Notes under the pieces: model-generated | Seen by the model: the letters and a program-made list of their open reading frames with translations, nothing else | Databases searched by the model: none | Told to the model about the DNA's origin: nothing | In this document: in pieces, positions 16,933 to 18,887 of the stretch | Numbering within the stretch: the stretch's first letter is position 1 | Layout: each line of letters starts with the position of its first letter | Made by a program: the position numbers and the translations under genes | DNA from: Rosenbergiella metrosideri | GTDB lineage: Bacteria > Pseudomonadota > Gammaproteobacteria > Enterobacterales > Enterobacteriaceae | Direction: 5' to 3' | Length of the DNA: 64,000 bases | Assembly (NCBI RefSeq): GCF_022602565.1 | Contig: NZ_JALBCV010000007.1 | Span: 99,085-163,084, forward strand

Positions 16933-17256
16933 ATGGATACTTACGAGTGCATTGATGTACTGGCCGCAGAAAAGTACTTACAAGAAGGGGCGCGTCTGGT
17001 TGATATTCGTGATCCTCAAAGTTTTGAAAAAGCGCATATTCGAGGAGCATTTCATTTAACGAACGGCTCGTTGAATCTGTTTATAGAAGACAGTGATTAT
17101 GACCAACCGGTGCTAGTCCTCTGTTATCACGGTAATAGCAGCAAAGGTGCGGCACAATATTTGATTAACCAAGGATTTGACCAAGTTTATAGTGTGGATG
17201 GTGGGTTTGATGCATGGTATGCACGTTTTCCCGATCAAGTGATCAAAGAGATCTAG
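16933..17256 (+). CDS. glpE: GlpE, thiosulfate:cyanide sulfurtransferase (single rhodanese domain)
   Basis: Cytosolic rhodanese that transfers sulfane sulfur, also to thioredoxin. The long upstream extension of the frame runs through the glpD operators and is not coding; ATG 16933 gives [10 protein letters not shown] and 107 residues (E. coli 108). Catalytic Cys64 in the loop CYHGNSS, and [14 protein letters not shown] near 22-35. First gene of glpEGR, 28 bases before glpG. Confidence 0.94.
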
Positions 17257-17284: not shown

Positions 17285-18118
17285 ATGATTCGAATCACCG
17301 AATTTACAAACCCGCGAATGGCCTATGCATTTGTTGATTATATGGCGACGCAAGGGATTAAATTAACTATTGAACAGCAGCAGAATTACGTCTTATTTCT
17401 CGAAGATGAGCAAAAACTGGATGACGTTAACACTGCGTTACAGCAATTTATTCGCGAGCCTTCCAACCCGCGCTATCTTGCCGCTAGTTGGCAGAGCGGC
17501 CGTGCAGGAACCCGGTTAGGTTATCCTAAAGCAGAGTTATGGCGGAACATTAAAGATCGTGCAGGGCCGCTGACGCTGACTGTTATGGCATTAGTCGTCA
17601 TTGCCTACTTGTTACTCATGTTTGTTGGCGAACAGCCGATTTTCTATTGGCTGAGTTGGCCTGCCAACAGTGAGCAAGGGCTTCAGGTCTGGCGCTGGGT
17701 GAGCCATATCTTTATCCACTTTAGTCTGCTGCAAATTGTCTTCAATTTGATGTGGTGGTGGTACCTCGGTGGCGTGATTGAGAAGCGTCTGGGTAGTGGT
17801 AAGTTATTTGTGATTACGGTCATCTCAGCGTTATTATCCGGCTGGATGCAAGCTAAGTTTAGCGGTATTTGGTTCGGTGGCCTTTCTGGCGTCGTTTACG
17901 CGTTAATGGGCTATAGCTGGTTACGAGGTGAACGTGACCCTGATAGTGGTATCTATCTAGAACGTGGTCTGATCGTGTTTGCTCTGCTGTGGTTAGCGGC
18001 CGGTTATTACGGTGTCTTTGGTAACCCAATGAGTAATATGGCCTATATTGTTGGACTCGTCATTGGGCTGGCGATGGCTTTCGTTGATAGCCAAGCGGCG
18101 CTGAAAAAGCGTAAGTGA
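17285..18118 (+). CDS. glpG: GlpG rhomboid-family membrane protein; catalytic His254 replaced by Tyr
   Basis: 277 residues (E. coli GlpG 276) that align without gaps at the key positions. N-terminal cytoplasmic domain to about 88, then six membrane segments. Present: WRWVSHIFIHF (Trp136, Arg137, His141, His145), Asn154, WWWYLGG, and the nucleophile motif GLSG with Ser201 (codon 17885-17887). Replaced: oxyanion His150 by Gln (17732-17734), Gly252 by Met, and catalytic His254 by Tyr (TAT, 18044-18046) within NMAYIVGLVIGL. In E. coli the Ser201-His254 dyad is essential for proteolysis, so this protein is predicted inactive as a protease. The frame is intact and lies in glpEGR with normal spacing, so it is not an obvious pseudogene. 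Confidence 0.93.
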   Translation: MIRITEFTNPRMAYAFVDYMATQGIKLTIEQQQNYVLFLEDEQKLDDVNTALQQFIREPSNPRYLAASWQSGRAGTRLGYPKAELWRNIKDRAGPLTLTVMALVVIAYLLLMFVGEQPIFYWLSWPANSEQGLQVWRWVSHIFIHFSLLQIVFNLMWWWYLGGVIEKRLGSGKLFVITVISALLSGWMQAKFSGIWFGGLSGVVYALMGYSWLRGERDPDSGIYLERGLIVFALLWLAAGYYGVFGNPMSNMAYIVGLVIGLAMAFVDSQAALKKRK

Positions 18119-18128
18119 AGGACGTTTA

Positions 18129-18887
18129 ATGAAACAGACGCAGAGACATGATGCTATTGTGGAGCTTGTGAAACGGCAAGGATACGTCAGTACTGAAGAG
18201 TTGGTGGAGTTTTTTTCAGTCACTCCCCAGACAATTCGTCGCGATCTCAACGATTTAGCGGAGAAAAACCTTATTCAGCGCCATCACGGTGGCGCTGCGC
18301 TACCTTCAAGTGCCGAGAATACTGATTGGCACGATCGTAAGATGATGCACTCCAGTGCGAAAACGCGTATTGCCACGAAAGTCGCCCAGCAAATACCGGA
18401 TGGTTCAACCCTTTTTATCGATATCGGTACCACGCCAGAAGCGGTGGCTCACGCCCTAATGGGCCACCATAATCTACAAATCGTGACGAATAACCTTAAT
18501 GTCGCCCAACTGATGATGGCCAAGACAGATTTTCGCGTCATCATTGCTGGGGGAACCTTGCGTGCCAGTGATGGGGGGATTATTGGTGAAGCGACGATGG
18601 ATTTTATTTCGCAATTTCGGCTCGATTTTGGCGTAATTGGTATTAGCGGAATTGATGAAGCCGGTACGATGTTAGAATTCGATTATCACGAAGTACGGAC
18701 TAAACGTGCGATTATTGAAAACTCGCGATGCGTTATGTTGGTCACCGACGGTTCAAAATTTGGGCGTAAAGCGATGGTAAGTTTAGGGGGAGTGGAGATG
18801 TTGGATTCACTCTTTACAGATAAGTTGCCACCAGAGCCTATTCTACATCTGCTGTCTAAGCATACGGTCAAGCTTGAAATATGTTAA
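18129..18887 (+). CDS. glpR: GlpR, glycerol-3-phosphate regulon repressor
   Basis: DeoR-family repressor of glp genes, induced by glycerol-3-phosphate. 252 residues, as E. coli. DeoR helix-turn-helix at about 18-43 (STEELVEFFSVTPQTIRRDL), then a sugar-phosphate-binding domain with DGSTLFIDIGTTPEAVAHAL. Its operators are the tandem sites at 16743-16783, so it is expected to control glpD opposite it. Starts 10 bases after glpG. Confidence 0.96.
   Translation: MKQTQRHDAIVELVKRQGYVSTEELVEFFSVTPQTIRRDLNDLAEKNLIQRHHGGAALPSSAENTDWHDRKMMHSSAKTRIATKVAQQIPDGSTLFIDIGTTPEAVAHALMGHHNLQIVTNNLNVAQLMMAKTDFRVIIAGGTLRASDGGIIGEATMDFISQFRLDFGVIGISGIDEAGTMLEFDYHEVRTKRAIIENSRCVMLVTDGSKFGRKAMVSLGGVEMLDSLFTDKLPPEPILHLLSKHTVKLEIC

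Follow-up and report, generated by a model that had tools for sequence, protein, structure and literature searches.

A GlpG rhomboid lacking the Ser-His dyad, conserved under purifying selection in Rosenbergiella

Introduction

GlpG is the model rhomboid, and its biological role is described as little known (PMC7231995; this and the other sources are cited for individual passages). In Shigella it is described, together with Rhom7, as cutting the orphan proteins HybA, FdoH and FdnH (PMC7232013). For another bacterial rhomboid, YqgP of B. subtilis, the catalytically dead S288A variant is reported still to present MgtE to FtsH, an adaptor role that is said to require an unobstructed active site (PMC7231995). 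Derlins have the same fold and thin the membrane, and Dfm1 is reported to recognise its clients via a Trp-Arg (WR) motif (PMC12615303). Here, we describe the glpG gene found in 64,000 nucleotides of Rosenbergiella metrosideri DNA (contig NZ_JALBCV010000007.1, positions 99,085 to 163,084 of the forward strand; this whole stretch is called the window). Its product is an orthologue of GlpG in which the catalytic dyad is incomplete and the predicted fold is intact.

The proposal developed below, which we consider to have an even chance of being correct, is that Rosenbergiella GlpG is a natural pseudoprotease that arose in place and presents clients, most likely to FtsH.

Results

The following features of the window concern the gene itself.

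17285..18118, + strand: glpG, intact, encoding a 277-residue GlpG-family rhomboid without the catalytic dyad (Q150, Y254)
17285..17530, + strand: Rhomboid_N, the N-terminal cytosolic domain, residues 1-82 (Pfam)
17690..17695, + strand: codons 136-137, Trp-Arg, the WR motif of loop L1, kept in 293 of 293 distinct GlpGs
17732..17734, + strand: codon 150, CAA, Gln; His in 275 of 293 distinct GlpGs
17885..17887, + strand: codon 201, TCT, Ser, the catalytic nucleophile position, retained
18044..18046, + strand: codon 254, TAT, Tyr replacing the catalytic His; His in 282 of 293 distinct GlpGs

On re-reading, the frame of 277 codons with zero stops and zero frameshifts that the first-pass annotation had assigned to glpG was recovered, as were the three codons on which it had focused, including TAT at 18044-18046. 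The nucleophile lies in a GxSG motif (GLSG, residues 199-202). His141, His145, Asn154, Gly199, Tyr205, Trp136-Arg137 and the glycines of transmembrane helix 6 (TM6), Gly257 and Gly261, are all kept, in agreement with what had been noted for Asn154, the two histidines and the TM6 glycines. The E. coli residue numbering is consistent with the phmmer alignment to E. coli GlpG structure chains, which has no gaps over residues 82-275, in line with the position-by-position comparability that had been assumed. Both Pfam profiles match (Rhomboid, 7.6e-26; Rhomboid_N, 1e-25). The protein is a GlpG orthologue, since it exceeds both NCBIfam equivalog cut-offs, with 427.8 bits for NF008155 (cut-off 335) and 354.7 bits for TIGR04239 (cut-off 250), and is encoded between glpE and glpR.

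With Tyr254 the general base of TM6 is absent, and H254Y would be the decisive change. The protein has histidines at positions 141 and 145 only, so that no other histidine could take over from His254. The charged residues in the predicted helices are the same as in a dyad-intact GlpG from Tatumella (locus L006) except at both ends of the last helix, and the only one without a counterpart there is at position 275, in the C-terminal tail. A GlpG variant with Thr instead of Ser at position 201 (S201T), in which a hydroxyl remains without polarisation by His254, is described as having no proteolytic activity (PMC12955534). Judged from the sequence, it is highly probable that normal proteolysis is absent from Rosenbergiella GlpG.

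An AlphaFold2 model based on 53 aligned sequences has a pLDDT of 90.1 and a pTM of 0.69, the latter probably reflecting an uncertain linker near residues 71-80 that leaves the N-domain loose. At E<=0.001 the model has 34 matches in the PDB, all of them GlpG, with 4qo0 at the top (root-mean-square deviation 1.4 Å over 179 columns). The model is thus that of a rhomboid with an intact predicted fold and an incomplete dyad.

Gln150 and Tyr254 are present in the GlpG of all five Rosenbergiella genomes examined, and none of the five genes contains a stop or a frameshift. The proteins of R. epipactidis, R. gaditana and R. collisarenosi are 99%, 95% and 92% identical to that of the window, respectively. 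A sequencing error was considered and rejected, since the five genomes agree and their codons differ synonymously at both position 150 (CAA/CAG) and position 254 (TAT/TAC). Codon 201 reads TCT, TCT, TCA, TCA and TCG in the five species with the serine constant, and Asn154, Tyr205 and Gly199 are retained as well. On the GlpG tree, the closest genus with an intact dyad is Tatumella, in which all four whole-genome loci (L006, L007, L008 and L013) have His150 and His254. Mapping the residues among relatives, as the first-pass annotation had suggested, thus gives a loss that is found throughout Rosenbergiella but is absent from Tatumella and from the majority of other relatives.

Two further substitutions had been pointed out along with Tyr254. 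The replacement of Gly252 by Met is indeed there, but a part for it in the inactivation had to be rejected, since Tatumella carries Met252 with an intact dyad; shared in this way, the residue is likely ancestral. The exchange of the oxyanion histidine is likewise real, but the idea that H150Q is decisive on its own was rejected, since a group of four GlpGs (g107, see below) combines Gln150 with Ser201 and His254; the cited passage of PMC2989971 also counts against it. Going by this comparison, Gln150 alone need not inactivate GlpG.

A profile search with PF01694 gave no second rhomboid besides GlpG at E<=0.001 in the five Rosenbergiella genomes, which answers the initial question of whether an active one might be encoded elsewhere. 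Exactly one rhomboid per genome was also obtained for four of the seven Cronobacter genomes, Mixta intestinalis and the genome G115, all introduced below, and for four g107 and four of the five g36 genomes. The control was positive in 14 of 14 named genomes. Dyad-intact relatives likewise carry a single rhomboid in the same searches, and the dyad-less bacteria appear to be without any ordinary rhomboid protease.

The wider distribution of the active-site residues was obtained from a census of 320 loci, 319 of them with a GlpG match; dropping five partial ones left 314 full-length copies and 293 distinct proteins. The census covers 197 of 269 matched family genomes (a hand count with a few partial copies included), takes in 80 named loci and adds 40 of 315 matched genomes from other families in the order (again a hand count, all better-scoring). 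Some loci represent one genome drawn from two collections. Ser201 is found in 287 of the distinct proteins, while Asn154, Gly199 and Gly261 are kept, like the WR motif, in every one. The dyad is missing in only 11: five from Rosenbergiella (Ser201/Tyr254), four from Cronobacter (genus g109; Gly201/Leu254, with Ser150), L164 (Thr201/Cys254) and L249 (Asp201/Asn254). It is intact in all 40 loci from the other families.

Two further genera keep both Ser201 and His254 with a rebuilt oxyanion side, in which His145 and His150 are both changed, and are under purifying selection. These are g107 (four proteins; L115, L161, L163 and L165) with Gln145/Gln150, and g36 (five proteins; L124, L166, L167, L169 and L275) with Asn145/Ala150. 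No match to glpE was found within the fetched flanks of the g36 glpG copies. In addition, glpG is annotated on plasmid records of Enterobacter, Citrobacter and Klebsiella, some other matches being chromosome-sized records; among the matches listed, four plasmid glpG records have one common form, 51.6% identical. For each of the four dyad-less proteins that were tested, the NCBIfam equivalogs give the name "intramembrane serine protease GlpG", so that curated database models hide dyad-less GlpGs under a serine protease name.

The Cronobacter form, with Ser150, Gly201, Asp253 and Leu254, is present in seven of seven genomes with seven distinct proteins (L156, L260, L263, L266, L327, L328 and L329), and glpE and glpR flank the gene in the four genomes checked. 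The assignment of g109 to this genus rests on second contigs of two genomes that match, at 100% over 12 kb, plasmids of C. condimenti 1330 and C. universalis NCTC 9529. L249 is the GlpG of a 2.7-Mb genome, G115, with an intact glpEGR locus (glpG at L321:1841-2674), and it evolves fast. L164 (G301), assigned by the same kind of sequence match to Mixta intestinalis, has Thr201, Cys202, Cys254 and Cys257, and three congeners are dyad-intact. Its GlpG is accelerated, with a dN of 0.27 to a congener, and is probably decaying. The three cysteines around the former active site are odd for a decaying protein.

In the GlpG tree, calculated with the columns of residues 145, 150, 201 and 254 removed and giving FastTree local supports for the protein rather than for the species, G115 branches as sister to Rosenbergiella (support 0.96), and the two may share one dyad loss or have undergone two separate ones. 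Mixta intestinalis groups with its dyad-intact congeners (support 0.97). The tips of L249 (0.63) and L164 (0.61) are long branches, and the stems measure 0.25 for Rosenbergiella and 0.38 for Cronobacter. Since Cronobacter and Mixta intestinalis are placed elsewhere on this tree, it implies at least three independent dyad losses, that of Cronobacter being, to judge from its different substitutions and different place, an event independent of Rosenbergiella. Rosenbergiella is thus not a single oddity, and the recurrence strengthens the pseudoprotease interpretation.

We have also estimated the selection acting on the gene after the loss. For Rosenbergiella, NG86 gives a mean dN of 0.041 and a mean dS of 1.62; in a single pair, as many as 143 differences are synonymous, compared with 35 nonsynonymous ones. 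The omega value averages 0.032 for the six of ten pairs whose dS is below 1.5; across the full set of ten, four of which have dS above 2, it lies at 0.019-0.036. The corresponding values for four Cronobacter genomes are a dN of 0.030, a dS of 0.39 and an omega of 0.082. Codon maximum likelihood (ML) yields 0.029 for Rosenbergiella and 0.067 for Cronobacter (four genomes), to be compared with 0.050-0.181 in nine dyad-intact genera (ML was run on nine of 15 dyad-intact sets), 0.069 in g107 and 0.043 in g36. Setting omega to 1 costs 360 log units for Rosenbergiella and 124 for Cronobacter; because kappa was also fixed at 2.5 in these runs, the differences do not amount to a clean test of a single parameter. 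Neutral decay can be excluded in Rosenbergiella and Cronobacter alike. The ratio of about 0.03, far from 1, and the lack of stops in the sister genomes bear out the expectation of the first-pass annotation, and together with the genus-wide loss they support its suggestion of selection on a non-proteolytic role, the inactivity itself being a prediction from sequence. The omega of glpR (0.011-0.037) is lower than that of glpG in all 13 sets; with the neighbouring gene more constrained, glpG is therefore not unusual for its place. Because nearly every residue is kept at this omega, the retention of Ser201 would be weak evidence for a role of that residue.

The positions that did change were compared with 44 near-invariant sites, defined as having one residue in at least 97% of 273 canonical proteins. 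The 20 altered proteins were removed from this set, which makes sites 150, 201 and 254 invariant by construction. In Rosenbergiella, sites 150 and 254 are the only ones broken in every species; with P219, which is broken in a single species, 41 of the 44 remain intact in all five. Cronobacter broke 150, 201, 253 and 254, G115 five sites and Mixta intestinalis ten, while canonical proteins break 0.42 on average and at most six. The concentration of breaks on the three catalytic sites has a P of 0.009 in Rosenbergiella (two of three breaks), 0.0003 in Cronobacter and 0.03 in G115; in Mixta intestinalis (0.12) it is not clear. This pattern fits a targeted loss of catalysis in Rosenbergiella and Cronobacter, and general decay in Mixta intestinalis.

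Finally, genes for the clients described in Shigella were looked for by domain searches of genomes. The FdnH/FdoH transmembrane domain was not found in the five Rosenbergiella genomes, in G115 or in four dyad-intact Tatumella, and one was found in each of four Cronobacter searched. Altered genomes carry it in 14 of 20 cases and canonical ones in 27 of 38, which shows no association. The NiFe small-subunit C-domain, used as a stand-in for hydrogenase in general, was also not found in the five Rosenbergiella or the four Tatumella genomes, and it is present in none of the 20 active-site-altered genomes versus 16 of 38 canonical ones. Exploratory Fisher tests gave p values of 0.0004 by genome and 0.044 by genus, the latter falling to 0.013 without the Erwinia-Pantoea side; the genomes were chosen by us, the genera sorted and counted by hand, and phylogeny is not corrected for. 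The result is suggestive only: cutting may have become dispensable once the best-known client was gone. As a full explanation, loss of the formate dehydrogenase (FDH) and hydrogenase clients was rejected, since Tatumella is without both domains and keeps the dyad.

The gene has also kept its place in glpEGR, as stated at the outset, with both neighbours intact; they were named by recognition, not by family search.

16933..17256, + strand: glpE, rhodanese, 107 residues, intact, upstream of glpG
18129..18887, + strand: glpR, 252 residues, intact, downstream of glpG

Discussion

These results make a conserved non-proteolytic role for GlpG very likely; whether it takes the form of an FtsH adaptor hangs, in our analysis, in the balance. 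In the mechanism that we propose, the general-base histidine would have been lost from an ordinary GlpG in place (H254Y, with H150Q). Seated in the membrane, the fold would continue to use its lateral gate and WR loop to engage transmembrane proteins that are unstable or orphaned, and would present these clients to a dislocase or processive protease, for which FtsH is the most likely candidate. Dead YqgP acts on MgtE in this manner, as do Derlins on their clients in ERAD. The absence of proteolysis, the client binding and the link to FtsH are what we infer here. The features that are kept, namely the N-domain, the WR loop, the gate residues Phe153 and Trp236, and the fold, are what a role of this kind would require, but an active GlpG depends on them as well. 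A wider claim, which we put forward tentatively and hold to be somewhat more doubtful than not, is that client binding and presentation could be the core selected function of GlpG in the Enterobacteriaceae. Cleavage would then be optional and would have been discarded at least three times (in Rosenbergiella and its sister, in Cronobacter and in Mixta intestinalis) with the gene retained, so that Derlin-like proteins would have arisen in place.

A number of points weigh against the adaptor proposal. The N-domain of YqgP differs from that of GlpG, and the link to FtsH is demonstrated for B. subtilis YqgP and not for GlpG. The YqgP N-domain is described as crucial for the adaptor role, and FtsH without cleavage by YqgP as unable to degrade MgtE fully (PMC7231995); cleavage in Shigella is described as licensing the degradation of orphan HybA (PMC7232013). 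A dead GlpG would therefore need other clients or another route. The WR motif is reported in ~80% of rhomboids and is thus not adaptor-specific (PMC12615303). A weak point of the omega comparison is that one of the 15 dyad-intact sets has an NG86 value below that of Rosenbergiella (g72, 0.017, with a dS of 0.12 among three near-identical sequences). Tatumella is without both client domains (0/4 each) and keeps its dyad, while Cronobacter keeps the FDH domain. Also, with Ser201 retained, residual chemistry is possible.

The last point leads to the alternative that the protein is still a serine hydrolase, a slow or altered protease in which Ser201 acts, alone or together with Tyr254, and the oxyanion donor is Gln150. 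The constancy of Ser201 across the five species despite three different codons speaks for it, as do the retained Asn154, Tyr205 and Gly199, and the co-occurrence of Gln150 with Ser201/His254 in g107 indicates that this residue may be tolerated. We nevertheless judge it improbable: there is no replacement base, with histidines only at 141 and 145 and no new helix charge relative to Tatumella L006 except at position 275, and S201T is described as inactive (PMC12955534). Moreover, at an omega of 0.03 the retention of Ser201 is not special, and this residue is also gone in Cronobacter and G115. Possible, if on the unlikely side, is a non-proteolytic GlpG that is no FtsH adaptor but a scaffold, a membrane-thinning chaperone, a regulator linked through glpEGR to glycerol-3-phosphate metabolism, or a client-protecting holdase. 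Such a role would suit the position of glpG between glpE and glpR and the bilayer thinning reported for active and inactive members of the fold (PMC12615303), and it is compatible with the YqgP and HybA evidence that counts against a dead GlpG feeding FtsH (PMC7231995, PMC7232013); however, nothing in this analysis points positively to a specific partner.

Two further alternatives were considered. Neutral decay of a dispensable gene, caught before its first stop codon, is extremely improbable. There are glpG copies with stops in other genomes of the family (L127, L140 and L141), and the Mixta intestinalis GlpG looks accelerated (with the tip branch of 0.61 and 10 of 44 near-invariant sites broken), but in Rosenbergiella omega is 0.02-0.04 in all ten pairs, there is no stop or frameshift, and 41 of the 44 sites are untouched in every species. 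It is also distinctly improbable that the need for cutting was relaxed after loss of the orphan clients of hydrogenase 2 (Hyd-2) and formate dehydrogenase, with selection only on the membrane-fold stability of an idle protein. The distribution of the NiFe domain (0/20 versus 16/38) would agree with this, but an idle protein would hardly keep an omega of 0.03. Furthermore, the genomes searched from Tatumella, Pantoea, Mixta and the Erwinia side are without the hydrogenase domain and keep the dyad, the FDH domain lacks the pattern (14/20 altered, 27/38 canonical), and the comparison set is author-chosen and uncorrected for phylogeny.

Comparison with Known Systems

The closest described relative is the GlpG of E. 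coli and Shigella, to which the Rosenbergiella protein is orthologous, with the same gene order, 56% identity (E. coli), N-domain, core fold, WR loop, Ser201, Asn154 and TM6 glycines. The difference is that the former has an active Ser201-His254 dyad, whereas Rosenbergiella has Tyr254 and Gln150. Cronobacter GlpG shares the genus-wide loss of the dyad (7/7), the status of sole rhomboid (four searched), the purifying selection and the adjoining glpE and glpR (four checked), but it has S150, G201, D253 and L254 and lies at another place on the tree.

Among other bacterial rhomboids, YqgP (GluP) of B. subtilis has a protease-independent role when made dead; it is, however, naturally active, only the engineered S288A variant being dead, and complete degradation of the client depends on cleavage by YqgP itself (PMC7231995), whereas Rosenbergiella GlpG, known here from its sequence, is dyad-less by nature. 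YdcA of B. subtilis is also described as a rhomboid without detectable proteolysis (PMC7231995), but Rosenbergiella GlpG has lost the dyad residue itself.

Derlins and iRhoms are eukaryotic and separate in origin, whereas the Rosenbergiella change arose within one bacterial GlpG lineage. In a Foldseek search, iRhom and Der1 chains match the Rosenbergiella model weakly (E 0.009 to 1.3). What is shared is the rhomboid fold without a working dyad, and the WR motif, which in Dfm1 is reported to be needed for client recognition (PMC12615303).

The first-pass annotation had regarded a bacterial pseudo-rhomboid derived in situ from GlpG as novel. In this respect it holds, as no report of a natural dyad-less GlpG was found in a search of the open-access literature (subscription papers being mostly outside its scope), but it had missed that the loss recurs in Cronobacter, G115 and Mixta intestinalis. 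Eukaryotic pseudo-rhomboids and the protease-independent role of YqgP are known already; what is new is that the present ones are bacterial, arose in place, did so several times and are the only rhomboid found in the cell. For the model rhomboid, lineages without the dyad whose protein is nevertheless constrained to a comparable or stronger degree amount to separation-of-function mutants made by nature. If the Rosenbergiella and Cronobacter proteins are indeed inactive, their function is the non-proteolytic part of the GlpG job, and they would constitute a repeated bacterial parallel to the origin of the Derlins and iRhoms.
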